This document shows positions 11,241 to 57,314 of a stretch of 64,000 bases of DNA, piece by piece. Position 1 is the first letter of the stretch; each line of letters starts with the position of its first letter. A program made the translations under genes and the position numbers. Source of the DNA: Bacteroidota bacterium (GTDB lineage: Bacteria; Bacteroidota; Ignavibacteria; Ignavibacteriales; Ignavibacteriaceae); contig JAMCWE010000102.1 of NCBI GenBank assembly GCA_023475265.1, positions 1 through 64,000 on the forward strand, given 5' to 3'. Under the pieces are notes generated by a model. The model searched no databases, had not been told where the DNA came from, and saw nothing but the letters and a program-made list of their open reading frames with translations.

Positions 11241-12746
11241 ATGTTCATATTGAAATTAAAATCCGGTGATAAAAAAATATCATATAAGCCTTTAAGCATC
11301 AGCGTTAAGTTTTTGATTGATGAAAAAAAATTAAAGCAGAGTCTTGAAAATTTTATTAAGGTTACAAACGTTCAATTATCGGAACTTCAGAAAAAAAGTT
11401 TTCTTTCCAAAGAAGGTAATGAGATTAGGATTTCAAAACATGATGGCAAGCCGGATGAGTTATTCATTTCAAAAATAATTATCGATGATAAATTTTCATC
11501 TGATCATTTTAGAAATCATCTTGCAGGCTTCATTCAAAATATCGGCAATGAAGAAGTAAAATACCTTCACATTTCAATTCCAAAGTATGAACACTTTAAG
11601 AAATATTTTGAGAGTGAGGAATATTTTTATAGAACTTTCATGGAAGGAATTTATCTCGGCAATTATTCTTTCGACAAATATAAAAAAGACAAGAAGGCTG
11701 AGAAGCTACTGGAAGTATATTTTTATGCCGATGATGGAAAGAAATTAAGCTCAGCAATAAATAAAACTGTAAATCTTATGGAAGGTGTTGGCTTTACAAA
11801 AGATTTACAGAATGAGCCGTCAAATGTTTTAGTGCCGTCGATACTTGCTGAAAGAATATCTTCAACTTTGAAAGAAGAAGGAGTAAAAGTAAAAGTATTT
11901 GACGAAAAGGAAATTAAAAAAAGAAAGATGGGCGGCGTGCTTGCAGTTGGAAGCGGCAGTAATAATCCGCCGAGGTTCATTGTTATTGAATACAACGGTG
12001 CAGCTAAGAAATATAAAAAGAAACTAGTTGCATTAGTTGGCAAGGGAGTTACTTTCGACTCCGGTGGAATTTCCATTAAGCCATCAGCACATATGGGAGA
12101 GATGAAAGCCGATATGTCAGGCGCTGCTGTTGTAGCGGGAACAATCCTGGCTGCTGCAAAAGCAAAACTACCTGTTGATATTTTAGGAGTTATTCCATCA
12201 GTTGAAAATATGCCATCGGGAAAATCTTTTAAACCAGGTGACATAGTGATTACAGCTTCCGGAAAAAGCATTGAAATTGAAGATACCGATGCTGAAGGAA
12301 GAGTAATTCTATCTGATGCACTTGATTTCGCATCCAAGGCTAAACCGGATGTAATAATTGATTTAGCAACACTAACCGGCGCATGTGTAGTTGCGCTGGG
12401 AGAATTTGTCGGCGGTTTATTTACAAAAGATGATAAGCTTGCCGATGAACTTTATAAAACCGGGCAACAAACTTTTGACAGATTATGGCGACTTCCGTTG
12501 TGGGATGATTATAATTTTTTAATCAAGACTGATGTTGCGGATGTTAAAAACCTTGGCGGCAGGTGGGGAGGTGCAATAACTGCGGCAAAGTTTCTTGAAA
12601 ATTTTGTCGATAAGAAAATATCATGGGCGCATCTTGATATTGCTGGTCCGGCGATGGCAAATGATTTCAACAACTATACAAAGAAATTTATGACTGGATA
12701 TGGAGTGAGACTGCTGTTTGAGTATTTAGAAAATTTAAATAGATGA
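11241..12746 (+). CDS. pepA: Leucyl aminopeptidase, M17 family
   Basis: GKGVTFDSGGISIKPS, NTDAEGR-like EDTDAEGRVILSDAL, M17 metal-binding motifs. Confidence 0.9.
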   Translation: MFILKLKSGDKKISYKPLSISVKFLIDEKKLKQSLENFIKVTNVQLSELQKKSFLSKEGNEIRISKHDGKPDELFISKIIIDDKFSSDHFRNHLAGFIQNIGNEEVKYLHISIPKYEHFKKYFESEEYFYRTFMEGIYLGNYSFDKYKKDKKAEKLLEVYFYADDGKKLSSAINKTVNLMEGVGFTKDLQNEPSNVLVPSILAERISSTLKEEGVKVKVFDEKEIKKRKMGGVLAVGSGSNNPPRFIVIEYNGAAKKYKKKLVALVGKGVTFDSGGISIKPSAHMGEMKADMSGAAVVAGTILAAAKAKLPVDILGVIPSVENMPSGKSFKPGDIVITASGKSIEIEDTDAEGRVILSDALDFASKAKPDVIIDLATLTGACVVALGEFVGGLFTKDDKLADELYKTGQQTFDRLWRLPLWDDYNFLIKTDVADVKNLGGRWGGAITAAKFLENFVDKKISWAHLDIAGPAMANDFNNYTKKFMTGYGVRLLFEYLENLNR

Positions 12747-12765: not shown

Positions 12766-13095
12766 ATAAGCACTATAAAATCTCTCTGGAACTCTCTAAA
12801 AGTTGTTACGAGCACTTTGTGAACTCTCTTGAGAAGCTTTCGGGCTGTCATGAGAACTTGTAGAGTCCTCTGAAGAACCTTATTAGTGCTTAATAGCACA
12901 TTTAAGGCTCTCGGTTCCACTCTTTGAGTCCTTCTGAGAACCCTTAGGGTTGTTTGGAGAACTTTTAGAGTCCTCTGAAGGACTTGTTTAGTGCTTAATA
13001 GCACATTGAAAGCCCTCGCTACCACTTGTTGAGTTCTCTGTAGAACCTTTAGAGTAGTCGGGAGAGCTTATTGGGTTCTTACAAGAGTTCTATCT
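12766..13095. repeat. Degenerate 21-bp tandem repeat array (~16 units; consensus approx. tggagaacttttagagtcctc) with a 105-bp higher-order repeat
   Basis: Manual register: units start at 12766, 12787, 12808 ... every 21 bp; units at 12850-12954 are similar to units at 12955-13059. Confidence 0.9.
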
Positions 13096-13239: not shown

Positions 13240-13268
13240 GCATAACGGTGTTGAGCGGCGGGTTAGGC
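13240..13268 (-). other. Possible truncated attC-like (integron cassette) sequence downstream of the SnoaL-like gene
   Basis: Reverse strand GCCTAAC-CCGCCGCTCAACACC-GTTATGC begins 17 bp after the stop codon; shorter than a normal attC. Confidence 0.3.
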
Positions 13269-13285: not shown

Positions 13286-13711
13286 TTACTTTCGGTAGGC
13301 GTCCTTCTGCAGAACCTGCAAACCAAACCAACCCCAATAAACGCGGTGCCTTTGAATCAGTCCTTCTTCGTTAAGCTCCATTACCTCCACAAAGTCCATT
13401 TGCTCGCCTTCGGGACCGGAGCGTGGGTATTCGAACATCAGTTTTTTGCCATCAGTGAGATAGCCAGTACGGAAATACTGCCGCACCTTTGGTTTGCGCT
13501 CAACAACTTTTTCAAACAGCAGTCGCAGCTGTTCGTGGCCACGCAAGACACCATTTTCAGTGCCCATCAAATGAGGTATTACGGGACTCTCCAGCGTTGC
13601 ATCGGGCGCATAGAGGGCGAGAAGTGCTTGCGCGTCATTGTTTGACAACGCCTTGTCCCACTCGTGATATATCCTTTCAACAGGGCTGGATAGTTTGTGC
13701 TTCTGATTCAT
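13286..13711 (-). CDS. Nuclear transport factor 2/SnoaL-like family protein
   Basis: HEWDKALSNNDAQALLALYAPDATLESPVIPHL...; visibly higher GC than neighbours. Confidence 0.75.
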   Translation of the reverse strand: MNQKHKLSSPVERIYHEWDKALSNNDAQALLALYAPDATLESPVIPHLMGTENGVLRGHEQLRLLFEKVVERKPKVRQYFRTGYLTDGKKLMFEYPRSGPEGEQMDFVEVMELNEEGLIQRHRVYWGWFGLQVLQKDAYRK

Positions 13712-13805
13712 ACTTGCCTCCTGAGCTTCCTATAATAAACATTATGAGAAAGCATATTCTTCTTTTGCAGAATAAATTATGATATTGCTGTCAATTAATT
13801 TCATG

Positions 13806-14042
13806 CTATGAGATATTTATACTTCGATCCTCTCTCACTTTTTTTTGCCATTGAGATGGATCGCCGTAATTGGAAACATCAACAATTTTATTAATTATTT
13901 TATAATAATGTTCTAAATTCTTTTCGGAATTGCCTGGTGCAGGTATAGTTTGAATTTTATAACTAATATTTAAACGCTCAGCTAATTCTTTAATCAGCAT
14001 AACATCATTTTTATTTTTCGATTCTAAAATTATTCTTGTCAT
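13806..14042 (-). CDS. Small hypothetical protein (antitoxin-like, no toxin partner seen)
   Basis: 78-aa ORF with plausible composition; conserved small ORF type in related genomes (recalled). Confidence 0.5.
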   Translation of the reverse strand: MTRIILESKNKNDVMLIKELAERLNISYKIQTIPAPGNSEKNLEHYYKIINKIVDVSNYGDPSQWQKKVREDRSINIS

Positions 14043-14258
14043 TTTTCTTCTCTTATGAAATCGTTCTTCTTTGTTTAACTAAATACTTCACCTAACATAT
14101 TAAAAGTAATTTCCGATACATTTATTCTGTTATAATTTACTACTTAGGATATTATTAAACAAGCATTTGTGTAAATTTCTCAATTCATGCTTCCGCTGTC
14201 ATCAAGAGGTTCGGTTTAATGCAAACTTAATTAGCAAAGCATGCACTCATGCATCCGT

Positions 14259-14930
14259 TCAGTTATTTATCTTCCCATCTTTAATTTCAAAAACTGTATC
14301 AGCAAGTTTTACTAACTCCGGGTTGTGCGTAACAATTACGAATGACTTTCCAAGATTATCGCGCAAATTAAGTATAATTTGATGAATTATTTCACTGTTT
14401 GCCGAATCAAGGTTTCCGGTCGGTTCATCTGCAAAAATAATTGAAGGGTCATTTGCGAGCGCTCTGGCAACGGCTACTCTCTGCTGCTCGCCGCCGGAAA
14501 GCTCTGCAGGTTTATGATGTGCTCTGTCCAATAGTCCGACAGATTCTAAAAGCTCTAAAGCTTTCTTTGTAGATTTTTCTAAAGAAACTCCATGAATCAT
14601 TTTGGGGATTGCAACATTTTCGATTGCAGTAAACTCAGGCAGCAGGTGATGGAACTGAAATACAAAGCCGATATTTTTATTCCTAAATTTTGTAAGCTTG
14701 TCATCTGATAATTTAAAAATATCATGATCTTCATAATACACAGAACCGCTGTCCGGTCTATCTAATCCGCCGAGAAGATGAAGCAAAGTGCTTTTCCCTG
14801 CGCCTGAAGCGCCGACAATGACGGAAATCTTTTTCTCTTCAATCTCAAGTGAAACAGATTTAAGAACTTCAAGCTTTAGCTTCTGGTTGTTTTGATATGC
14901 CTTAACTAAATTTTCTGCTTTTAAAATCAT
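14259..14930 (-). CDS. lolD: ABC transporter ATP-binding protein, LolD-like
   Basis: Walker A GASGAGKST, signature LSGGEQQRVAVARAL, Walker B IIFADEPTGNLD; next to LolC/E permeases. Confidence 0.85.
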   Translation of the reverse strand: MILKAENLVKAYQNNQKLKLEVLKSVSLEIEEKKISVIVGASGAGKSTLLHLLGGLDRPDSGSVYYEDHDIFKLSDDKLTKFRNKNIGFVFQFHHLLPEFTAIENVAIPKMIHGVSLEKSTKKALELLESVGLLDRAHHKPAELSGGEQQRVAVARALANDPSIIFADEPTGNLDSANSEIIHQIILNLRDNLGKSFVIVTHNPELVKLADTVFEIKDGKINN

Positions 14931-44194: not shown

Positions 44195-44210
44195 ATTTGA
44201 AGTACAGACT

Positions 44211-44244
44211 AAAGATGACATCTTTTCCTAAAGATGTCATCTTT
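44211..44244. repeat. REP-like perfect hairpin, left copy flanking RAYT
   Basis: AAAGATGACATCTTT-TCCT-AAAGATGTCATCTTT. Confidence 0.95.
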
Positions 44245-44260
44245 AAGAGTGAAAGAAACT

Positions 44261-44845
44261 ATGAAAAAGTTAGATTACCACACTCCATTATACAAAGACT
44301 GTATATACCATATTTACAACCGTGCAAACGGAAAGGAGAAAATATTTTTTACCGAAGAAAATTATATTTATTTCTTAAAACAATATGCAAAGTATATGGG
44401 TGGACTGGTAGATACCTTTGCATTTTGTCAGCTGTCAAATCATTTCCATTTATTAGTAAGAATAAAAACAGACAAACTTAAATTAATTAGTGAGGGTTTT
44501 AGGAAATTCTTCATTTCATATTCAATGTCTATAAATAAGCAGGAAAAAAGGAGCGGTAATTTGTTCCAGAGGAATTATAAGCGGAAGATTATAGAGGATA
44601 AAAAATATTTTTTAGCCGCGGTATATTATATACACGCAAACCCTGTGCATCACGGGATAGTAAAAGATTTTAGAAATTATAAATACAGTTCATATAATTC
44701 ATTGATAGGAGATAAGGGTACTAAGCTTAAAAGAGATGAAGTATTAGAACTATTCGGAGGTAAAGAACAATTTATAAATTATCATTCTGAATTTAGGAAA
44801 GGCGGGTTAATGGATAATCCCATTATCGAGGATGATGAAAGATGA
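44261..44845 (+). CDS. REP-associated tyrosine transposase (RAYT)/Y1_Tnp-like transposase
   Basis: YHIYNRANGKEKIF; FCQLSNHFHLLVRI (HxH motif); GNLFQRNYKRKIIEDKKYFLAAVYYIHANPVHHGIV; stop codon lies inside the right hairpin. Confidence 0.88.
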   Translation: MKKLDYHTPLYKDCIYHIYNRANGKEKIFFTEENYIYFLKQYAKYMGGLVDTFAFCQLSNHFHLLVRIKTDKLKLISEGFRKFFISYSMSINKQEKRSGNLFQRNYKRKIIEDKKYFLAAVYYIHANPVHHGIVKDFRNYKYSSYNSLIGDKGTKLKRDEVLELFGGKEQFINYHSEFRKGGLMDNPIIEDDER

Positions 44846-44871
44846 CATCTTTTCCTAAAGATGTCATCTTT
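44838..44871. repeat. REP-like perfect hairpin, right copy flanking RAYT (identical to left copy)
   Basis: AAAGATGACATCTTT-TCCT-AAAGATGTCATCTTT. Confidence 0.95.
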
Positions 44872-44875
44872 CTAT

Positions 44876-45195
44876 TTAAGAAGCCAACTGCTGACAGTTG
44901 TATGCAATCGCCGGGATGCCGTAAGCCGACTGTAACTTGCTGTATGCTATCGCCGGAGAGATTGAAGCCGGCTGCATTATGTTGTAAACCACCGCCGTTA
45001 ATATTGAAGCTAAAGGCGGAAGGTTGGAAGCCATCGCCGGGTAGTTGGAAATCATCGCCATGTGATTGGAAGCTAACATAATGTGATTGGAAGGCATCAC
45101 CGTATCGTTGGAAACCGGAAGCGAAACGCTGGAAGCAATCTTCTATTGCTGGATATTAAAAGAAAGATGCTGGAAATCAAAAGAAGATGGTTTGA
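44876..45195. repeat. Degenerate 21-bp tandem repeat array (~15 units; consensus approx. gttggaagccatcgccgggta)
   Basis: Manual register every 21 bp: gttgtatgcaatcgccgggat, gctgtatgctatcgccggaga, gttggaagccatcgccgggta, gttggaaatcatcgccatgtg, attggaaggcatcaccgtatc... Confidence 0.88.
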
Positions 45196-45330
45196 CGTAA
45201 GTTGCCTGCTCGCCGAAGCTATCTGAATAAAATTTTTTGGATAGGAAAATTAGTGCAGGCGGGTTGTTTGGAATTTATTGTTTGTCATTCATAGTCATTC
45301 ATTGTTTTTAAATTACTGGTTGAACTTTGA

Positions 45331-45858
45331 TTTGCAACTGCCCACTAACAACTATTTACTGCTGGAGACTTCTGAAAAATTCAAAATGTCATTCCCGTGA
45401 AAACGCATAGGCGTCAACTTAAGGCGCGAGGAATTAAATTGTTTTAAGTAAATATTGTGTTAAAACCTAAATAATATTAAAGGAAATGTTGTTGGTGGGC
45501 AGTTGCAAAATGCAAAGATATATTTGAAAAATAAGTCTCTCCCTTGTAAGGGAGAGATTAGAGAGAGTTCAAAAGGATAATCAGGCCAACGAACTCATTC
45601 CCACCCTTCTCTTAAAAAACGAAGGTCTTATTAGCAGGAAAAACTTTAACATTATCATTCTGACAACTAATAACATTAAAAAGAGTTCCGGCATTAAAAA
45701 GTAAAATTAAGTTGACGCTAATGCGTGAAAACGGGAATCCATTGATTATGAACGAGATTCCCACCCCGCCTTGCCCGCTTCGCCGAATCGAGGCGAGCCC
45801 AGTCGGGCAGGTTTTGTGGGAATGACAACTTAGTATATAATCTATTTTTCAGAAGTCT
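45331..45858. repeat. Cluster of interleaved inverted repeats (fossil MITE/palindromic elements)
   Basis: TTTGCAACTGCCCAC 45331 / GTGGGCAGTTGCAAA 45495; AGACTTCTGAAAAAT 45366 / ATTTTTCAGAAGTCT 45844; attcccgtgaaaacgcataggcgtcaactt 45391 / aagttgacgctaatgcgtgaaaacgggaat 45709. Confidence 0.85.
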
Positions 45859-46051
45859 ATGCTGATTATTTTAGGCTGAAAGCTGACCGCTGAAAGCTAA
45901 AAGCTAAATACTGAAAGCCAAAAGGTTTTAGTCGCCACTGTATGTTGGTGTATTTCCAGGAGTAATATAGAAAGGAGAATGGTGTTATAGAAAGCGAAGG
46001 CTCATCTTTTCCGGGGTGAGCGGCATAAACCTGATCCATCGGAGGAATGTT

Positions 46052-46765
46052 ATGAATAACAAATTCATAAACACGTATCAAGCTCATAAACGCATCAACG
46101 ATCTTTTTGATGAAAAGAAAGAAGTAGTCGATAGCATTCCGGCATTTAGGAGATATGCAGATATATTCAGTGCAAACCTAAAGGCAATTGAGCAGAAAGA
46201 AAGCGGTCATAAAGACCTGACCGAAGGTAAAACCGATGTTAAGGCTGAAGCGCGGCATGATTTAATTGCAGCAATTGTTAAAGTCGCTGATGCGGAAAAC
46301 AATTACGCATCCGAAAATAATTTGGTTGAGCTCGAAGCCAAGAGCAATCTAACTGAATCTACTTTACGGAACATGCGTGATACCCAACTAGGCGAAAAAG
46401 CGAAAGCTGTATTAGATCTTTCAGCCGGTATAGAAGCTGGTCTAATCGACCACGGTTTGAAGGCTGAAAAGCTGGAAGCCGCTAAAGCCTGTCTCACTGC
46501 ATACAACGGGTCAATTACTTCAAGGGACCTTGGAGAGAACCTCAGCGTAGCAGTAACCAAGAGCGTAGCTCAATTAATGAGCGAAGACAGTTCAATTGTA
46601 TTGGACAGATTTCGCCGTTATGTCGGGAACCTCGAGGATGAACAACCCGAGTTCTGCGCCCGTTATCATGTTGCCAAGCGCGTGATAAACCTGGGCGGAG
46701 GGCATAAGGGTAATGACGGAGGCGGTGATAATCCGCCGCCGGATACTCCAACAGACCCGGCTTAA
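46052..46765 (+). CDS. Helical hypothetical protein with Gly/Pro-rich low-complexity tail
   Basis: RBS ggagga before ATG 46052; tail GGGHKGNDGGGDNPPPDTPTDPA. Confidence 0.7.
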   Translation: MNNKFINTYQAHKRINDLFDEKKEVVDSIPAFRRYADIFSANLKAIEQKESGHKDLTEGKTDVKAEARHDLIAAIVKVADAENNYASENNLVELEAKSNLTESTLRNMRDTQLGEKAKAVLDLSAGIEAGLIDHGLKAEKLEAAKACLTAYNGSITSRDLGENLSVAVTKSVAQLMSEDSSIVLDRFRRYVGNLEDEQPEFCARYHVAKRVINLGGGHKGNDGGGDNPPPDTPTDPA

Positions 46766-46779
46766 CGATTATATTAATT

Positions 46780-46812
46780 AAAGATGACATCTTTTAAAAA
46801 GATGTCATCTTT
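46780..46812. repeat. Solo REP-like hairpin, same arms as the RAYT-flanking hairpins, different loop
   Basis: AAAGATGACATCTTT-taa-AAAGATGTCATCTTT directly after a CDS. Confidence 0.93.
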
Positions 46813-46931
46813 ATCCTAAATGGATAGGGATTAGATCGAAGCAAGCCAAAGATAGATTTAATTGCAAATCTATCCGGCATTGCGGAAATCGAAATCCGGA
46901 TTAATTAACTAATTCCGCCGCAGCCCCGGGA

Positions 46932-47273: not shown

Positions 47274-49257
47274 ATGGACGGCAAATCATTAGACATCCTT
47301 TCCGATAAAATTACTAAGCTTAAAGAAATATTACCAGAAGCATTTACCGAAGAAAAGATAGATTGGGAAAAATTAAAGGCTGCGCTTGGCGAAGATGTAA
47401 ATTTTGAAAACGAGAGATACAATCTTAACTGGGCGGGGTAAGTCGGATGCATTTAGAGTTTTACAGCAGAGGACTTCCGGTACGTTGAGACCTATGTTTG
47501 GGGAAGGTGTTAATGATGTGCCGGCGTGGAGAACTCATCCCCCGGCTCTCCCGATTAAATCGGGAAGAAGGGGAGAAGAAACGGAGCGGGAATCCGAAAA
47601 TGTTTTTATTGAAGGGGAAAATCTTGAGGTGCTGAAGATTTTGCAGAAGTCTTACTTCGGCAAGATAAAAATGATTTATATCGACCCGCCGTATAATACC
47701 GGCAGCGACAGCTTTATTTATCCCGATAAGTTTTCCGAAACAAAAGATGAATATCTAAAGCGCATCGGCGACAAGGATGAAGAAGGCTTTTTGTTAAGGG
47801 AAGGATTTTTTAGGAAGAATAGTAAGGAAAGCGGACACTACCATAGCAACTGGCTATCGATGATGTACCCAAGGCTTTACACAGCGCGTAACTTATTGCG
47901 TGATGACGGAGTAATATTTGTCTCCATTGACGATAACGAAGTGCATAACCTTAGAATGATTATGAATGAAATTTTTGGGGAGGAAAATTTTTTAGCATCT
48001 ATTATCTGGCAGAAAAAATATGCTGCTTCAAATGATGCAAAAGGTATTGCTACAATGCATGATTATATTTTAGTCTATCAGAAAAGCTATGAATTTGAAA
48101 GAAATCTTTTCCCAAGAACAGAGAAGCAGGATTCATTGTATAAATATGATGATAATGATGGAAAGGGATTATGGAGATCTGATAATCTTTTAGTAAAGAG
48201 TTTCCAAGCAGACTATGTCTTCCCAATTAAAAATCCTAACACTGGTAAAGAATATTTACCACCACAGGGAAGTTGTTGGAGAGCGAGTAAGGATACAATT
48301 GAAAAATGGATTGAAGATAATAGAATATTTTTCGGAAGAGATGGAAAAGGTGCACCACAATTAAAGAGACATTTAAATGAAGTACAACAAGGAATTGTTC
48401 CAACAACTTGGTGGTCATTTCAGGAAGCTGGACATAATGACGAAGCTAATAAAGAATTAAAGAAACTATTTGAAACAAAAGCGCCTTTTGATACACCTAA
48501 GCCATCGCGTTTGATAAAAAGGATATTACAATTATCTACTATACCAAATGATAATGATATTATACTTGACTTCTTTTCAGGTTCCGGAACAACAGCGCAG
48601 GCGGTAATGGAATTAAATAAGGAAGACGGTGGAAATAGAAAATTTATTCTTGTACAGCTTCCGGAAAAGACGGATGAAAGCAGCGAGGCGTATAAGGCAA
48701 AATATTTTACTATTGCGGATATATGCAAGGAGAGAATTAGGAGAGTAATAAATCGTCTGAACCTTGATTCAGCAGGATTAAAGGATGAACAGGATGAATC
48801 GCAAAAAAGTTTATTCAATAATCCGGGTAATCCTAAAATCCCGAATAATCCAGGTTCAGACAATGGTTTTAAGGTTTTCAAGTTAGCGCCGAGTAATTTT
48901 AAGATGTGGCGGAGCGATGTAATTGAAACGGAAGATGACTTAAATAAAATGGTCGACCTTTTTGATACGCAGATTAAACCGGATGCGAAAAAAGAAAATA
49001 TGCTTTATGAATTAATGCTTAAATCGGGATTTACATTGACGGATAAGGTTGAAAAGATAAACGGGTATTATTCGGTTAATCATGGGCAGGCAGTTTTTGT
49101 ATTAGATAAGATTGACCAGAATATTGTTGACGCAATAATAAAATTAAAGCCGCAGAGCTGCATTATACTTGATGACCTCTTTGCAGGCAATGACCAGTTG
49201 AAAACAAACACCGCATTGCAGATGAAGGATGCGGGGGTGGAACTTAGCACTGTATAA
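47274..49257 (+). pseudogene. mod: Type III restriction-modification methyltransferase (Mod), interrupted by an apparent +1 frameshift at ~47435-47441; downstream frame is ORF 47404-49257
   Basis: [55 protein letters not shown](stop) then [18 protein letters not shown]... in +1 frame; motifs [13 protein letters not shown] and [17 protein letters not shown]. Confidence 0.8.
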
Positions 49258-49269
49258 AGAGTAATTTGT

Positions 49270-50106
49270 ATGAGCAACATAAAATTATTTGAATCGAAAA
49301 AAATACGTTCTGTTTGGAATGAAGAAGAACAGAAGTGGTACTTCTCGGTTATTGATATAATTGAAGTATTAACCGAAAGTAATAGACCGAGAAAATACTG
49401 GAGTGATCTAAAGAAGAAGCTTCATAATGAAGGGTATGATCAGTTGTCCGAGAAAATCGGACAACTGAAATTAGAAGCTGATGACGGTAAAAAATATATG
49501 ACTGATGTCGCTGATACAGAGACATTGATGCGATTAATCCAATCAATACCCTCACCAAAAGCCGAACCGTTTAAGCGCTGGTTAGCACAAGTTGGTTATG
49601 AGCGACTGGAAGAAATAGAAAACCCGGAGATTGCGTCTCAAAGAATGCGGGAGATATATAAAGCCAAAGGTTACAGCGATGAATGGATAGAAAAAAGAAT
49701 GCGCGGCATTGCTGTTAGAGATGAACTGACGGAAGAATGGAAAAAACGCGGCGTAAAAGAAAAGGTAGAATTTGCAATATTAACTTCTGAAATAAGCAAG
49801 GCAACATTTGGATTAACGCCAACTGAATACAAAGTTGTAAAAAACCTGCCCGGTAAAGGTGAAAACTTGCGCGACCACATGAATGATTTAGAGCTTATAT
49901 TTACTATGCTCGGTGAAGCATCGACAACGGAAATTGCACGGAAAAAAGACGCAAGGGGTTTTGAACAAAACAAAGGCGCTGCACAAAAGGGCGGTAAAAT
50001 TGCCGGTGATGCAAGAGAAGCACTTGAAAAACAGACCGGTAAGGAAGTAGTTTCTAAAGAAAACTATCTTCAGCTTGGTGAAAAGAAAAGAAGAAGATTG
50101 AAATGA
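49270..50106 (+). CDS. BRO-N/DinD-like family protein
   Basis: IRSVWNEEEQKWYFSVIDIIEVLTESNRPRKYWSDLKKKL...; MREIYKAKGYSDEWIEKRMRGIAVRDELTEEWKKRGV. Confidence 0.85.
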   Translation: MSNIKLFESKKIRSVWNEEEQKWYFSVIDIIEVLTESNRPRKYWSDLKKKLHNEGYDQLSEKIGQLKLEADDGKKYMTDVADTETLMRLIQSIPSPKAEPFKRWLAQVGYERLEEIENPEIASQRMREIYKAKGYSDEWIEKRMRGIAVRDELTEEWKKRGVKEKVEFAILTSEISKATFGLTPTEYKVVKNLPGKGENLRDHMNDLELIFTMLGEASTTEIARKKDARGFEQNKGAAQKGGKIAGDAREALEKQTGKEVVSKENYLQLGEKKRRRLK

Positions 50107-50120
50107 AGAACAGTTTTAAA

Positions 50121-50159
50121 TTAAAAACAAATACCGCATTGCAGATGCAGGATGCATGA
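50121..50159 (+). pseudogene. Remnant of a mod 3' end ([12 protein letters not shown])
   Basis: ttaaaaacaaataccgcattgcagatgcaggatgca matches mod C-terminus [12 protein letters not shown] at ~49199-49234. Confidence 0.8.
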
Positions 50160-50192
50160 ATTGATTTTAAAACAATATAAAGATATTTATTT

Positions 50193-51389
50193 ATGGATAA
50201 AATAAATCTAGTACGAGAAATTCAAGAACTCAAAAATCATTTGTCATATTCAAAAAATATGGGCTTTTTCTTTGGCGCGGGGACATCATGTGCATTAAAG
50301 ATTCCAAATGTAGAACAACTTACTGATGAAATACAAGCTGCACTAACAGATGATAATAAAACTAATTTTCAATTGATAAAAGATGATTTAGCATCAAAAG
50401 TTACTCCGAGAAAAGTTAATATCGAGGACATTCTAAATCAAATTAGAAGGATTAGAGAATTAACTGGAGAATCAAAAAAACAATATCAAGGAGTAAGTGG
50501 TGAATCATCAAAAGCATTGGATAAAATAATTTGTACTAAGATTTACGAAATCATTCTAGATAAAGAAAGGAGTGCAGATCTTGAAAGTACAAAAAAGTTT
50601 TTTGCATGGTTGAGCATTTTAAATAGAGATTTTTCCAAAGAAGTTTTCACTACAAATTATGATTTAATCATTGAAAAGTCACTTGAAGCAAGTCGTATAC
50701 CATACTTTGACGGATTTGTTGGTTCTTACGAACCTTTCTTTTGGCAAGAAAGCATTGATAAATTGGTGAAAAAGGACGACTTGACGCAAAATTGGATACG
50801 TTTATGGAAAATTCATGGTTCATTAAGTTGGTTTTGGAAAGAAGATACGAAAGCAAAATCTCCCAAGATTGTAAGAATTGGAAAAATTGAAGATATTAAG
50901 AAGGAAGAAAATGAGTTGGTAATATATCCATCTAAGGAAAAATATGATTCATCAAGAAAGCAACCTTTTATTGCATACTTTGATAGATTGAAGAATTATC
51001 TTTTGAATGGTGAACTACTTTTTATTTTTACTGGCTATTCCTTTTCAGATCAACACATAAATGAAATTATTTTTAATTGCATGAGAGAAAACAACCGCCT
51101 TTCAGTTTTGGTGTTTTTCTATAAAGACGAAGAAGTAGAGAATCTGTATAAAGAAACTTCCGCTTTCTTGAATATAAATGTCTTTGGACCAACAAAAGCA
51201 ATCATAAATGGTAACATAGGTGAATGGGAATTCCCCGAATTAGCAGAATATAAAAAAGAAAATAAAAAGTTTGATCACTTTTGGAACGATACTGAAAATA
51301 ATCTCACGCTTGGCGATTTTAATTTACTTGTAAATTTTCTCATAACAAGTTCCGGTAAAAGAGAAGCGATTGAATCAATTGTAAAATGA
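50193..51389 (+). CDS. SIR2-family domain protein (defence-type SIR2)
   Basis: GFFFGAGTSCALKIPNVEQLT; FTTNYDLIIEKSL; KIHGSLSWFW; LLFIFTGYSFSDQHINEII. Confidence 0.88.
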   Translation: MDKINLVREIQELKNHLSYSKNMGFFFGAGTSCALKIPNVEQLTDEIQAALTDDNKTNFQLIKDDLASKVTPRKVNIEDILNQIRRIRELTGESKKQYQGVSGESSKALDKIICTKIYEIILDKERSADLESTKKFFAWLSILNRDFSKEVFTTNYDLIIEKSLEASRIPYFDGFVGSYEPFFWQESIDKLVKKDDLTQNWIRLWKIHGSLSWFWKEDTKAKSPKIVRIGKIEDIKKEENELVIYPSKEKYDSSRKQPFIAYFDRLKNYLLNGELLFIFTGYSFSDQHINEIIFNCMRENNRLSVLVFFYKDEEVENLYKETSAFLNINVFGPTKAIINGNIGEWEFPELAEYKKENKKFDHFWNDTENNLTLGDFNLLVNFLITSSGKREAIESIVK

Positions 51390-53155
51390 CAACAGATATA
51401 ACATACTTAGGTAAAATCATACATGTTGATTCTGGAATAGTCGAAGTTGAAGTTTCTGATGAAATTCCATCGGCTGCACCAATCATAAATGGCAGACTAT
51501 ATAAAATTGGGCAGATCGGAACATTTGTAAAAATGCTGATTGGTAACATTACAATTTATGGAATAGTTTCCGCTGTTAGTAATGCGCCAAGCAATTCAGA
51601 TGAGACTAATTTAAAATTTAATTTTGGCTCAAGGTTTTTGTCAGTACAGCTCATTGGAGAAAAAATTGGTGAAGATGATTTTGAAAAAGGGGTAGGTACA
51701 TATCCAACGATAAATGATGAAGTACATTTGGTAGTTGAGAAAGACCTTTTTGACATATACGGAAAACACGATGAAGGTTCAATTGAAATTGGTAAACATT
51801 CATCCTCTGAAAACCTCTCTGTCTATATTGATATTCATAAATTAATTTTAAGACATTGTGCAATTTTGGGATCCACTGGTAGCGGTAAGTCTAACACTAC
51901 TGTAAGCATACTAAAAGCAATTCTTAATCATTATATTGGCTCAAGGGTGGTTTTAGTTGATCCACATGGTGAATATGCAAGTGCATTTCCTGAAGCAAAG
52001 GTTTTTAAAATAAATGATTCAACCAATCCATTATTCATTCCTTTTTGGTTAATGAACTTTGATGAATTAGCTTACTTTCTTGTCGGTGCTAAGCCAGCAG
52101 ACGATCAAAAAGTGGAATATAGAAAATTTAGAGAATTGATAACCGAGTTGAAGAAAGAAAATAATATATTAGTTTCAGGAACTGTGGACAAGAACTATAT
52201 AACAGCGGATTCTCCTATCCCGTTTAGTGCAAGAAAATTATGGTGGAAAATGAATTGGTGGTTGAATGCAAGTTTTACAACAACTAAAAAGGACGAACAG
52301 ACAGAAGAGACAGCAGTTTTAGAAAATAACGGTGATTATGAAAATTTGATAGGAGCAAAATTTACTTCTCATTTATCAACTCCTTTTGCAAATTCTCCAC
52401 ATGTATCCCAACACAAAGAATTTTATTCTTACGAGAAGAAAATGCTTTCAAGGTTAAAAGACAGCCGTTTTGATTTTCTTTTTAATCCTGGTGATTTCAA
52501 AGGAATACCTGGCACGAAAGATTTACACAACTTATTAAATGAATGGATAGGCAGTACACAAAAGCTCACAATTTTAGATTTAAGTGGAGTCCCGTTTGAA
52601 GTATTAGATATTACAGTGGGATTAATTACTCGTTTTATATATGATAGCATGTTTTGGGGGCGTAACGAAGCATACACAGGTAAGAATAGACCTCTTTTAC
52701 TTGCTTATGAAGAAGCTCATACTTATTTAAATAAAAATGATGATAACAGTTATTCCAGGCAGGCTGTTGAACAAGTTTTTAAAGAGGGTAGAAAATTTGG
52801 TTTAGGTGCACTTGTCATTTCACAGAGACCATCAGAAATTTCAGAAACTATTCTTGCTCAAGTAGGCACTTATATTGCATTAAGGCTAACAAACAGCGGT
52901 GATCAGTCAATTGTAAAATCTTCCGCACCTGATAATCTAAATAACTTGATTGATCTACTGCCAACATTAAGGACTGGTGAAGCAATTATTGTTGGAGAAG
53001 CAATTAAAATTCCATCAAGGGTAAGAATTAAATTGAATAACCCAAGACCAACAAGTGATGACCCAAAATTAGTTGAAGCATGGAGTAAAGCACACCCTGA
53101 AAATCCAGATAATTATAAATCGGTAGTAACAAGTATAAGACAACAAAAACTTTAA
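51386..53155 (+). CDS. HerA-like helicase/ATPase (DUF87), partner of SIR2
   Basis: HCAILGSTGSGKSNTTVSIL Walker A; RPLLLAYEEAHTYLNK Walker B; ATGA overlap with SIR2 gene. Confidence 0.9.
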   Translation: MTTDITYLGKIIHVDSGIVEVEVSDEIPSAAPIINGRLYKIGQIGTFVKMLIGNITIYGIVSAVSNAPSNSDETNLKFNFGSRFLSVQLIGEKIGEDDFEKGVGTYPTINDEVHLVVEKDLFDIYGKHDEGSIEIGKHSSSENLSVYIDIHKLILRHCAILGSTGSGKSNTTVSILKAILNHYIGSRVVLVDPHGEYASAFPEAKVFKINDSTNPLFIPFWLMNFDELAYFLVGAKPADDQKVEYRKFRELITELKKENNILVSGTVDKNYITADSPIPFSARKLWWKMNWWLNASFTTTKKDEQTEETAVLENNGDYENLIGAKFTSHLSTPFANSPHVSQHKEFYSYEKKMLSRLKDSRFDFLFNPGDFKGIPGTKDLHNLLNEWIGSTQKLTILDLSGVPFEVLDITVGLITRFIYDSMFWGRNEAYTGKNRPLLLAYEEAHTYLNKNDDNSYSRQAVEQVFKEGRKFGLGALVISQRPSEISETILAQVGTYIALRLTNSGDQSIVKSSAPDNLNNLIDLLPTLRTGEAIIVGEAIKIPSRVRIKLNNPRPTSDDPKLVEAWSKAHPENPDNYKSVVTSIRQQKL

Positions 53156-53171
53156 AATTAGGAGAACTAAA

Positions 53172-53384
53172 ATGGAAAGACAAAACGTAGAATCAAGTTT
53201 AGCAGCAAGTGTAGGTTATGATCCTACAACTTCGACTCTTGAAATTGAATTCAAAACAACAGGAGCAGTCTGGCAGTATTATGATGTTCCGGAAAACGTT
53301 TTCAATGAAATGATGAATGGCTCAATAGGTAAATATTTTCATGCAAATATTAAAGGACAATATTCTGAATCGCAAGTCGGTTAA
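53172..53384 (+). CDS. KTSC domain small protein
   Basis: SSLAASVGYDPTTSTLEIEFKTTGAVWQYYDVPENVFNEMMNGSIGKYFHANIKGQY. Confidence 0.8.
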   Translation: MERQNVESSLAASVGYDPTTSTLEIEFKTTGAVWQYYDVPENVFNEMMNGSIGKYFHANIKGQYSESQVG

Positions 53385-53417
53385 AAAAGTGAATAACTTT
53401 AGTGTAGCAAAAAAAGT

Positions 53418-53501
53418 ATGAAACTTTATTTTGATGCAAACCAGACATACCATAAAGAAGCGATAGATCCTGCTATTAAACTTTTAGGAAATTATTTATG
53501 A
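53418..53501 (+). pseudogene. Remnant of a type III res 5' end (MKLYFDANQTYHKEAIDPAIKLLGNYL*)
   Basis: Aligns to intact Res N-terminus MKLHFDANQTYQKDAISSVVKLFEGQP at 54621. Confidence 0.85.
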
Positions 53502-53605
53502 AACCCTTCATCCCGCATACGCTCCCTTTAAAAAATATTAAGCGGGAGAATTATATTACATTGATTGCGCAGGAAAATTTAGAGTCTACGCGGTACAACG
53601 GGTTA
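53498..53605 (+). pseudogene. Remnant of a Fic-family gene N-terminus (MKPFIPHTLPLKNIKRENYITLIAQENLESTRYNGL)
   Basis: Resembles N-terminal segment of Fic proteins (FIP..LPL...L...AN..L.R.DGL); frame then runs into the downstream RNA region. Confidence 0.65.
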
Positions 53606-53647
53606 GCCAAAATATTTTTGAAATTTGTTAATACTTTTATATATTTA

Positions 53648-53699
53648 CATCAACAAGCCTGCCAGGCCTCTCGAAGAAGCCCAAATCGGTGGGCTTTTT
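53648..53699 (+). ncRNA. Probable small structured RNA immediately upstream of the Abi_2/AbiF gene, ending in a terminator hairpin
   Basis: catcaacaaGCCTgccAGGCctctcgaagaAGCCCAaatcggTGGGCTtttt preceded by TTTG...TATATTTAC promoter-like sequence, 12 nt before ATG 53712. Confidence 0.6.
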
Positions 53700-53711
53700 A
53701 GTTTTAAAAAG

Positions 53712-54611
53712 ATGAAAACTCCATATACTAAAACTGCCCTAACATTTAAAGATCAAATAAACCGGCTTAAATCTAGGGGACTCACAATTGAAGACGAACC
53801 TAATACTCTTCATTACTTAACTCATATTAACTATTACCGGCTTAGCGCATATATGTATCCTTTTCTTGAAGACAAGGAACATCATATTTTCAAAAAGGGT
53901 GTAACATTTCAAAATATCCTTAACGTATATAATTTTGACCGTGAATTACGTTTATTGATATTAGATGCAATTGAGAGAATAGAAATATCTCTTAGGACAA
54001 ATATTATTTATGTTCTTTCGCATAAACATGGTCCATTTTGGGTTAGCAACAATGTACTTTATTTCAATCAAAATTATTTTCATGAACATATTAAAAGGCT
54101 AAAAGAAGAAATTGGTCGCTCCGACGAGAAATTCATAGAACATTATTTTTCAAAGTATTCAGAAGAGATTCCACCTGCATGGATATCCATGGAAATAGCC
54201 TCTTTTGGACTGCTGTCTCTTTTATTCCAAAACTTAAAGTCATTTAAGGATATGAAAGAAATTGCCCAAAGGTATGGATTGAACCGTATTGTATTTGAAT
54301 CATGGTTTCATTCACTTGTTTATGTTAGAAATGTATGTGCTCATCATGCAAGATTGTGGAATCGCAGACTTGGAGTACGACCCAATATACCAAAGTCAAT
54401 CGGCGGCAATTGGCTAAACAAGCTGGATGCATTAAGAAATGATCGTGTATTTATAATAATAGGAATTATAATTTATTTTTTAGAAATAATTAATACATCA
54501 AGTAGTTTTAAACTTGGGCTACATAAGCTTTTCGAAAAATATTCTATGATAGATTTAGCGCCGATGGGATTTCCCAAAAATTGGAAAGAAGAAGAATTAT
54601 TTAAGATATAA
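53712..54611 (+). CDS. Abi_2/AbiD/AbiF-family abortive infection protein (HEPN-like)
   Basis: KTALTFKDQINRLKSRGLTIEDEPNTLHYLTHINYYRLSAYMYPF; FDRELRLLILDAIERIEISLRTNIIY; VYVRNVCAHHARLWNRRL (RN...H HEPN-type motif). Confidence 0.88.
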   Translation: MKTPYTKTALTFKDQINRLKSRGLTIEDEPNTLHYLTHINYYRLSAYMYPFLEDKEHHIFKKGVTFQNILNVYNFDRELRLLILDAIERIEISLRTNIIYVLSHKHGPFWVSNNVLYFNQNYFHEHIKRLKEEIGRSDEKFIEHYFSKYSEEIPPAWISMEIASFGLLSLLFQNLKSFKDMKEIAQRYGLNRIVFESWFHSLVYVRNVCAHHARLWNRRLGVRPNIPKSIGGNWLNKLDALRNDRVFIIIGIIIYFLEIINTSSSFKLGLHKLFEKYSMIDLAPMGFPKNWKEEELFKI

Positions 54612-54620
54612 AACAATATT

Positions 54621-57314
54621 ATGAAACTTCATTTTGATGCAAACCAAACATACCAGAAAGACGCGATAAGCTCGGTTGTTAAACTGTTTGAAGGGCAGCC
54701 GTTAAACAAGGGAGATTTTGAAATATCAGGCAACGGAGGCGCTTTAACTCTTTCAGAGCTTGGATTCGGGAATAATATTTCTTTAACCGAATATGAAATA
54801 CTAAAGAACCTTAATCAAGTACAAAGTGAGAATGAAATAAATCTATCCGGACAGCTTGAGAGATTTTCTTTTAGAGACATTAACGGGGACGGGAAAGAAA
54901 AACCGGTTGAAACAGCATTCCCGAACTTTACAATTGAAATGGAAACGGGCACCGGCAAGACGTATGTTTATTTAAGAACAATTTACGAGCTTAATAAAGT
55001 TTACGGGTTTTCTAAATTTGTTATAGTTGTACCGAGCATTGCAATAAGGGAAGGCGTGTTAAAGAGTCTTCAAATAACTGAAGATCATTTGCAAAATCTT
55101 TATAACCGCACACCAATTAACTATTATGTTTACGACAGCCGCCGCTTGCCGCAGCTAAAGAATTTTGCCACAAGCAATGCAATACAAATCTTGATTATCA
55201 ATATAGATTCTTTTACAAAAGACACGAACATAATAAATCAATACCGGGACTCAACAAACGGCAAAAGACCGATTGAATATGTACAGGCAACAAATCCAAT
55301 CGTTATACTTGACGAACCGCAGAATATGGAAACCGATGCGAGGAAAAAAGGTATTACAAATCTTAACCCGCTTTTTGTTTTAAGGTACTCCGCTACACAC
55401 AAGTATATTTACAATCTTATTTACAAGCTTGACCCGGTTAAAGCTTATGACCTTGGCTTAGTAAAACAGATTGAGGTTGATTCCGTTTATTCCGAAAATG
55501 ATTTTAATGATGCGTTCATTCAGCTTGAGAATATTTCATCTGCAAAAACGAAGATAACTGCAAAAATTAAAATTGATGTTAATACCGGCGGCGGAGTTAA
55601 AAGAAAATCAATAAAAATAGATTCGAAGCATTATGACTTATATGAACTGTCGGGTAAAAGAGATCAATACAAAGACCTTCTTGTAAACGGAATAAATTAC
55701 GAAGAGCAGTTTATAGAACTTTCAAACGGTAAAATATTAAAGGCAGGCGAAACAACCGGCGACTTTAGAAATGAGATAATGAAGATCCAAATTCAAAAAG
55801 CTGTTGAAGAACATTTTATAAAGGAGAAGCAGCTTGGTGAAAAGGGAATAAAGGCTTTGTCTCTTTTCTTTATAGACAGGGTAGCAAACTACCGCAGCTA
55901 TGATGAATCCGGGAACATAATACAAGGGAAATTTGCGACATGGTTTGAAGAATCGTTTGAACGCTTTCAAAAGAAATATCCCAGATTAATTAAATATGAC
56001 AAAGAGAAAGTTCATAACGGCTATTTTGCACAGGACAGGAGCGGACATTACAAAGATTCTTCTTCCGGCGAATCGAAGGACGACGACGACGCATACCATC
56101 TAATTATGAAAGACAAAGAAAGACTTCTTGATGCTAATGAACCGCTGAGATTTATATTCAGTCACTCTGCATTAAGAGAAGGCTGGGACAATACAAACGT
56201 ATTTCAGATTTGCACATTAAACGAGACCGGTTCGGTAATGAAAAAGCGGCAGGAAATAGGACGGGGTTTAAGACTGTGCGTTAATAAAGACGGATACAGA
56301 GTATTTGATAAAAATATTAATCGCCTTACGGTAATTGCAAATGAAAGCTACGAAACATTTGCCAGGACTCTTCAAAAAGAAATTGAAGATGACTGCGGAA
56401 TTCAATTTACCGGCAGAGTAAAAGATAAAAGAGACCGTGTATCGATAAAATTAAAAAAGAATTATGAATTGGATCAGAGATTTTTAGACCTATGGGATAA
56501 AATAAAATATAATACCAGATACAGGGTAAATTATTCTACTGAAGAATTAATTAAATCGGCAGTAAAAGCAATTAAGAAAATGCCTGAAGTAACTGTCCCA
56601 GTGATTCGCTCAATAAAGACCGGTGTAGACATTGTTAAAGAAGGAGTAGGAGGACATCAAATAAATTTCAATTCTTATAGGATTAATGATTATAATTCAG
56701 TTGTACCGGATGTAGCAGGCTTTATTCAAAGCAGAACGGAACTTACAAGGTCGACAATAATAAAAATTTTAAGAGAGTCGGGAAGACTAAACGATGTAAT
56801 AAAAAATCCTCAACTGTTTTTAGATATGGCTGTAAAGGAGATAAAAGACGTACTAACCGATTTGATGATTGAAGGGATTAAATATGAAAGAATGGGAGAA
56901 ACGGAATATTACAAGATGGAGCTATTTGCCGACAAAGATCTGGAAGGATATAAGGAATATCTTTATAAGGTAAGGAAAGAGGATAAGACTTTATATAATT
57001 ATATTCCATGGGAATCTGAAGTTGAGAGAAAATTTGCTGAGGATTGCGAAACGAATGAGAACATAGAATTTTATATAAAGCTTCCAAATTGGTTTGTTAT
57101 AAACACACCAATCGGCACTTACAACCCAGATTGGGCATTGATTTATAAGAACGACGAGAAAATTTATTTTGTTGCTGAAACAAAGTATTCATTAGACCCG
57201 ATGAAGAGATATTCATACGAAAACTATAAAATAAAATGCGGAGAAAAACATTTTGAAGAATTTGAGGATGTTAAATACCAGGATGTTCGAAAGTTGAATG
57301 AGTTAAAAGTTTAA
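54621..57314 (+). CDS. res: Type III restriction endonuclease subunit (Res), helicase plus nuclease
   Basis: IEMETGTGKTYVYLRTIYELNKVYGFSKFVIVVPSIAIREGV; VILDEPQNME; FSHSALREGWDNTNVFQICTL; C-terminal NPDWALIYKNDEKIYFVAETK nuclease motif. Confidence 0.93.
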   Translation: MKLHFDANQTYQKDAISSVVKLFEGQPLNKGDFEISGNGGALTLSELGFGNNISLTEYEILKNLNQVQSENEINLSGQLERFSFRDINGDGKEKPVETAFPNFTIEMETGTGKTYVYLRTIYELNKVYGFSKFVIVVPSIAIREGVLKSLQITEDHLQNLYNRTPINYYVYDSRRLPQLKNFATSNAIQILIINIDSFTKDTNIINQYRDSTNGKRPIEYVQATNPIVILDEPQNMETDARKKGITNLNPLFVLRYSATHKYIYNLIYKLDPVKAYDLGLVKQIEVDSVYSENDFNDAFIQLENISSAKTKITAKIKIDVNTGGGVKRKSIKIDSKHYDLYELSGKRDQYKDLLVNGINYEEQFIELSNGKILKAGETTGDFRNEIMKIQIQKAVEEHFIKEKQLGEKGIKALSLFFIDRVANYRSYDESGNIIQGKFATWFEESFERFQKKYPRLIKYDKEKVHNGYFAQDRSGHYKDSSSGESKDDDDAYHLIMKDKERLLDANEPLRFIFSHSALREGWDNTNVFQICTLNETGSVMKKRQEIGRGLRLCVNKDGYRVFDKNINRLTVIANESYETFARTLQKEIEDDCGIQFTGRVKDKRDRVSIKLKKNYELDQRFLDLWDKIKYNTRYRVNYSTEELIKSAVKAIKKMPEVTVPVIRSIKTGVDIVKEGVGGHQINFNSYRINDYNSVVPDVAGFIQSRTELTRSTIIKILRESGRLNDVIKNPQLFLDMAVKEIKDVLTDLMIEGIKYERMGETEYYKMELFADKDLEGYKEYLYKVRKEDKTLYNYIPWESEVERKFAEDCETNENIEFYIKLPNWFVINTPIGTYNPDWALIYKNDEKIYFVAETKYSLDPMKRYSYENYKIKCGEKHFEEFEDVKYQDVRKLNELKV

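Follow-up and report, generated by a model that had tools for sequence, protein, structure and literature searches.

A degenerate 21-bp tandem array in an Ignavibacteriaceae genome as member of a dispersed, lineage-specific population of intergenic arrays

How can the length of a tandem unit stay constant while its bases change? This question is raised by a degenerate array (array 1) located within positions 1 to 64,000 of contig JAMCWE010000102.1 (assembly GCA_023475265.1, Ignavibacteriaceae), a stretch of 64,000 nucleotides which is referred to as the window in the following. Array 1 was found to consist of about 15 head-to-tail units, the register of which was traced to about position 13091, thereby confirming with one unit less the preliminary description, which had counted about 16 units in a 21-bp register free of indels. 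Identity within the array amounts to 0.511 at lag 21 and 0.542 at lag 42, with dinucleotide shuffles staying far below (0.258 +/- 0.026; maximum of 500 shuffles across lags 10-59: 0.363). A scan of the whole window with lags of 15-129 gave z values of up to 11.0 for array 1 and of up to 9.8 for array 2, which is the sole other site in the window with a comparable signal (next best value 4.8). The five-unit superrepeat of 105 bp, which had been claimed from reading the letters alone, was borne out, as TRF called a period of 105 on array 1 and the in-register identity of the two copies (Table 1) drops to 28-35 of 105 positions when they are shifted by one or two bases. Together, the TRF result and the superrepeats give the array the character of a head-to-tail tandem repeat (minisatellite). 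Within this register the units have diverged considerably, with a mean pairwise identity of 55% among 14 units and at least 77 substitutions in their minimum spanning tree, and no indel was found between the units of array 1. A CRISPR array was rejected, as the contiguous 21-bp units all resemble one another and no unrelated spacers are present, and so was a 7-bp sub-repeat, for which no lag-7 signal at letter level but only a weak 7-bp AT/GC harmonic was obtained.

Array 1 is intergenic, located between the M17 aminopeptidase gene and the SnoaL_2 gene, and belongs to a lineage-specific segment of about 1.48 kb which also holds the SnoaL gene and a small ORF (Table 1). In relatives whose aminopeptidase is 85-87% identical, as well as in more distant Ignavibacteria, pepA is followed by the ABC ATPase gene within tens to about 150 bp, and array 1 is missing at the orthologous pepA-lolD site of close relatives; since sites orthologous to those of arrays are empty in close relatives, no single array is essential. 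No match to most of the segment was obtained from the 12 further genomes of the genus, exceptions being a 296-bp part (13747-14042) which matches one locus of the sister species G009 and short matches elsewhere. In addition, a stretch of about 70 bp (14116-14192) was observed to have recurrent matches about 0.85-1.0 kb apart in G007 contig 52, G012 contig 250 and G001 contig 8, as if marking the boundaries of repeated gene units. On the minus strand downstream of the SnoaL gene (13240-13268) an attC-like half palindrome, GCCTAACCCGCCGCTCAACACCGTTATGC, was noticed, which occurs once in this genome and in none of 20 relatives. Matches to integron integrases above the curated cut-off were obtained for the genome of the window (G000 contigs 134, 232 and 54), for G001 (contigs 1 and 16) and for G007 (contig 111), hence some members of the genus carry integrons. 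For array 1 itself, an integron attC site or cassette unit was rejected, as by inspection the 21-bp units do not possess GTTRRRY ends.

Table 1. Positions of array 1, of its internal superrepeat, of its genomic surroundings and of array 2 within the window
Feature	Position	Strand	Remarks
Array 1	12766-13095		about 15 degenerate 21-bp units; consensus GYNCT-N4-AGNRC; T-rich between sites
105-bp higher-order repeat, copy 1 (five units)	12850-12954		TRF and in-register identity
105-bp higher-order repeat, copy 2	12955-13059		82 of 105 positions identical to copy 1
pepA, M17 leucyl aminopeptidase	11241-12746	+	left neighbour of array 1; conserved in relatives
SnoaL_2-domain gene	13286-13711	-	right neighbour of array 1, within the lineage-specific segment
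ABC-transporter ATPase gene	14259-14930	-	LolD-like judged from the adjoining FtsX/MacB permease; right border of the segment; conserved in relatives
Lineage-specific segment	12757-14239		between pepA and the ABC ATPase gene; contains array 1
Array 2	44884-45180 (about)		about 14 units of 21 bp, approximately TTGGAAGCCATCGCCGGGTAG; sequence unrelated to array 1

Directly before array 2, a gene encoding a Y1 (IS200-like/RAYT) transposase was identified (44234-44845). Within 44210-46815 this gene is bracketed on both sides by the palindrome AAAGATGACATCTTTTCCTAAAGATGTCATCTTT, a variant of which is found again near 46787, and array 2 begins just past the second AAAGATGACATCTTTTCCTAAAGATGTCATCTTT copy. 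Furthermore, the window holds a probable defence island (47404-57314) with genes for an N6/N4 DNA methylase, a SIR2-like protein with a HerA helicase, an Abi_2 (AbiF-type) protein and a type III restriction subunit, whereby an Rfam abiF RNA match (53658-53694) locates to the start of the Abi_2 gene.

The distribution of such arrays was determined on stretches sampled from the genome of the window (G000), two sister species (G001 and G009), two further genomes of the genus (G005 and G008) and three other genera of the family (G013, G018 and G020, about 1.0 Mb in total). Fixed-lag autocorrelation scans were carried out and arrays with a fundamental period of 21, 42, 43 or 63 were counted, which applied to 28 of 38 arrays in the first three genomes and to 1 of 21 from the remaining sampled stretches. 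Eleven such arrays were found in 586 kb of G000, five in 391 kb of G001 and twelve in 389 kb of G009. None was obtained from 148 kb of G005, 398 kb of G013, 240 kb of G020 or 511 kb around pepA in other genomes; 400 kb of G018 revealed one 63-bp candidate only and G008, a fourth species of the genus, one array. When indel-tolerant TRF was used for arrays of at least 100 bp, lengths of the 21-bp series (21, 22, 42, 43, 63, 64, 84, 85, 105 and 126) made up 18 of 50 arrays in G000, G001 and G009 versus 3 of 48 elsewhere, with the sampled sister genera possessing tandem repeats of mixed periods. In the strongest arrays, TRF revealed superrepeats (42, 63, 84, 105 and 126 bp) in which indels are few or absent. 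The rough figure of some tens to about 90 arrays per genome is an overestimate, because part of the sampled stretches had been picked for weak protein-search hits, and the array densities are to be taken as upper figures for the same reason. Nearly all arrays are intergenic and comprise 185-470 bp, corresponding to about 9-22 units; their placement is not clearly related to promoters or to the orientation of genes, and no flanking element or gene common to them was found beside the arrays examined. The 21-bp spacing is not absolute, as some units (e.g., in the array on G000 contig 38) are 22 bp long. Long open frames were observed in some 21-bp arrays (L017:1465-1737, L152:8461-8733 and L101:18098-18470; that of L152 is coiled-coil-like on one strand, LEKLSEELEKL), hence a few members of this census may be coding. 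The preliminary description would have been refuted by the lack of a 21-bp peak; the outcome spoke against refutation, as arrays of the same period were found in sampled stretches of this genome and of the sister species. Array 1 itself is missing from the relatives' orthologous site.

Profile comparison revealed the units to be unrelated for most pairs of arrays, so that the period is the feature which they share, and the earlier view that spacing is kept while bases diverge thus gained support, as the 21-bp period is common to unrelated arrays across the genus. Families of related units recur: family A comprises array 1, L005 of G001 and L003 and L146 of G009, L032 groups with L157 and L181 with L150, L147 and L151 are two loci of one genome with related units, and two G009 loci share one dimer unit. 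In the sampled flanks, the genes next to members of one family are non-orthologous. For L032, L148 and L178 the flanking genes occur in the genus without an array at that site, and array-only matches were found at other loci, including a second locus of G000. When 59 genomes were searched with a sequence model of family A, only G000, G001 and G009 yielded members; both strands of most family-A arrays were matched, and family-A units reside at few loci per genome. DNA similarity searches with array 1 returned its own copy only when directed against relatives and nothing from plasmid and phage DNA, which is explained by the units diverging too fast for BLAST; a search with the exact pattern AGAACTYTNAARGTTCTC yielded one chance match. 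A protein search with the minus-strand frame of array 1 gave weak matches which led to other non-coding arrays, and the open-frame matches L008, L009, L012, L016, L019 and L020 were set aside as heptad-repeat, coiled-coil-like stretches in long ORFs. At L178:15687-15729 an AT-rich palindrome was seen (AATTGTTTAATTGT...ACAATTAAACAATT), diverged copies of which (82-91% identical) are present on several contigs of the genus and which appears terminator- or REP-like. Array 1 is a member of a dispersed and lineage-specific population of intergenic, non-coding arrays, the unit length of which is held at 21 bp.

Structure within the unit was identified upon alignment of family-A units from the three species, which proceeds without gaps over three units and yields the consensus G-Y-N-C-T-N4-A-G-N-R-C, with the T of CT being invariant and the G, C, A and AC nearly so, whereby several positions besides the T exceed 90%. 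The "free base divergence" of the preliminary description was therefore overstated: the units did diverge, but while some columns are free, others are near-invariant, and the same columns are kept in four family arrays. Per-column conservation is correlated among these four non-orthologous arrays (rho 0.47-0.70, permuted P 0 to 0.0225), as compared to a mean rho of 0.04 for unrelated array pairs. Sharing of unit variants is seen chiefly between arrays of the same genome (z 3.4 for array 1 with the array on G000 contig 38) and is weaker for the pair of array 1 and L005 (z 2.6). As arrays of different species mostly do not share unit variants, constraint on columns is favoured over inherited variation, even though part of this constraint might go back to an ancestral array which varied at the same columns. 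None of 1000 column-permuted controls was as palindromic as the unit profile of array 1, and such controls are exceeded at P <= 0.003 in 11 of 26 arrays, about half of the arrays being non-palindromic. In four arrays no covariation was obtained between the two arms (191 Watson-Crick cells versus 192 expected, P = 0.60), which fits DNA half-sites rather than a hairpin. On the level of sequence, the palindrome and the shared conserved columns look like DNA half-sites under constraint and not like an RNA hairpin, whereby the conserved columns may represent protein contacts. In its 21-bp period and its columns conserved across species, the array has the sequence character of the iteron/parS type.

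Considering the palindromic consensus and the shared columns, together with the lack of arm covariation, of a conserved frame and of AT phasing, array 1 is tentatively explained as binding sites in tandem, at which a homodimeric DNA-binding protein would place one dimer per two helical turns, a reading to which a probability of roughly 0.42 is assigned. Here, each family-A unit would serve as degenerate palindromic site for one dimer, and dimers placed every two helical turns would all face the same side of the DNA and contact their neighbours. As a consequence of this proposed contact the spacing could not slip, while bases not read by the protein would be free to drift; the absence of any indel next to the many substitutions in array 1 supports such a constraint. 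The arrays would grow and shrink by in-register unequal exchange, giving rise to the superrepeats of 42 to 126 bp, and copies of them would spread to new loci. The putative binding protein would bind cooperatively and may act in chromosome organisation or local silencing; no such protein was identified, and the flanks of array 1 encode the aminopeptidase and the SnoaL protein. A single dimer model cannot cover all arrays, because about half of them are not palindromic. The "two helical turns" considered earlier may reflect the distance between bound proteins, but AT-phased curvature is not a tenable reading of them: intrinsically curved DNA with phased A-tracts was rejected, since the 10.5-bp second harmonic of AT/GC is absent (mean z -0.2 over 25 arrays).

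Two rival explanations assume a gene product of the array itself, and both are considered very improbable. Array 1 might be a minus-strand gene, perhaps decayed, for a protein with seven-residue repeats (roughly R-T-L-K-V-L-Q), as its minus strand is open over 93-98 codons, a length borderline against column-shuffled arrays (P = 0.053), and its most variable phase coincides with third codon positions. Yet this codon-phase effect is not significant (P = 0.31), the only usable start in the frame is an internal GTG, and the frame is without Pfam match. Across 25 arrays neither an excess of open frames nor a codon-phase signal was found, the homologous G009 array contains four in-frame stops, the open frame of the G001 array is by inspection in a different register from that of array 1, and the 22-bp units of some arrays likewise argue against a coding heptad repeat. 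The "seven codons" of the preliminary description are hence disfavoured, and a protein-coding heptad repeat was rejected with no conserved frame showing third-position variability and bounded by start and stop. A similarly slight chance is given to the idea that array 1 is transcribed and functions through small RNA hairpins in a row. Compared to dinucleotide shuffles, both strands fold better (z -3.2 and -5.1) and several units are perfect hairpins (e.g., AGTGCT-TAAT-AGCACA), but this folding follows from the palindromic consensus, because the array reads nearly alike on both strands. As the arms show no compensatory changes and no Rfam match to array 1 was obtained, a structured non-coding RNA was rejected.

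Of greater weight is the explanation by a drifting, functionless satellite, which is possible and almost as likely as the row of dimer sites. It assumes that replication slippage and unequal exchange, with occasional moves to new loci, act on arrays which inherited the 21-bp period from one or a few founders, the sequences of which are by now too diverged to be recognised. Repeated in-register block duplication is evident from the superrepeats (42 to 126 bp), the same dimer unit is found at two G009 loci, array 1 shares unit variants with the contig 38 array of its own genome, the relatives' orthologous sites are empty and the gene context of the arrays is inconsistent, all of which such a satellite would readily explain. 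It accounts less well for zero indels among at least 77 substitutions, for unrelated sequence families holding one period and for conserved columns agreeing between species; moreover, recently homogenised arrays (e.g., L155, L156 and L157) also possess 21-bp units instead of a spread of lengths. The latter would be expected if a dedicated copying or insertion enzyme made units of fixed length, as the preliminary description had considered; the period would then be fixed when units arise rather than through selection, just as CRISPR adaptation makes spacers of fixed length. Fresh-looking arrays of unrelated sequence, all with 21-bp units, are in line with this idea, and so is the confinement of the population to part of one genus, as expected if the enzyme were present only there. 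It is nevertheless regarded as improbable: arrays are not accompanied by a common flanking element or gene, no candidate enzyme was found, and many arrays were homogenised as dimers to hexamers of diverged 21-mers, which renders block duplication the visible process. Hardly any credence is given to an artefact of assembly or binning. The genome is a metagenome assembly of 270 contigs, but the units are too diverged for collapse or expansion by an assembler, array 1 resides inside a 78.8-kb contig with flanking genes in conserved order, and the same kind of array occurs in other assemblies.

Comparison with known systems places the arrays next to plasmid iterons and parS/parC centromere arrays, the protein-binding repeats of which measure about 20-22 bp and are lined up in tandem on one helix face in non-coding DNA. 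The arrays described here are likewise tandem and non-coding with units of about two turns, but they are many, chromosomal and of unrelated units, show strong divergence within the array and have no initiator or partition gene adjoining the arrays examined. With REP/BIME elements and their RAYT (Y1) transposases they share an intergenic and dispersed location and palindromic units, and array 2 adjoins a Y1 gene; unlike these, they keep a strict 21-bp tandem period over 10-20 units, the unit differs between arrays, and hairpin covariation is absent. For array 1, REP/BIME was rejected considering the few loci per genome with family-A units, the non-covarying arms and the lack of a Y1 gene beside it. 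Tandem repeats within one bacterial genome are normally of mixed lengths, and whilst the arrays resemble bacterial minisatellites/VNTRs in being intergenic tandem repeats, they differ from these in that one period dominates. Eukaryotic satellite DNA with higher-order repeats is similar in that its diverged monomers keep a fixed length, multimers form superrepeats, turnover is rapid and locations are non-orthologous, the differences being the bacterial host, the size of 200-470 bp, the dozens of loci and the two-turn monomer. The nearest published case is that of the intergenic TAACTGA heptamer arrays of Beggiatoaceae, Cyanobacteria and some Bacteroidetes, the function of which is unknown (PMC4679880). 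Common to both are many intergenic tandem arrays per genome in few lineages, but the published arrays consist of one fixed heptamer, often just before start codons (PMC4679880), as opposed to many unit sequences of 21 bp without a 7-bp sub-period at letter level. A description of such a population of 21-bp arrays was not found in the open-access literature.

One may ask whether a hitherto undescribed class of bacterial chromosomal element is at hand. Each genome would possess dozens of dispersed "two-turn" satellite arrays, the length of 21 bp being imposed by selection or by a dedicated machine irrespective of the sequence, and each family would be read by its own DNA-binding protein, possibly organising the nucleoid. 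In this full form the proposal is rather unlikely. Arrays which share only a two-turn period, with unrelated sequences and empty sister sites, would imply that these cells possess something which reads or makes DNA in steps of 21 bp. If spacing-dependent binding proteins turn out to be true, chromosome organisation in an uncultured lineage would become accessible in a new way; if a copying enzyme does, it would represent a new way to make repeats. Should either be shown, the arrays would constitute a new class.
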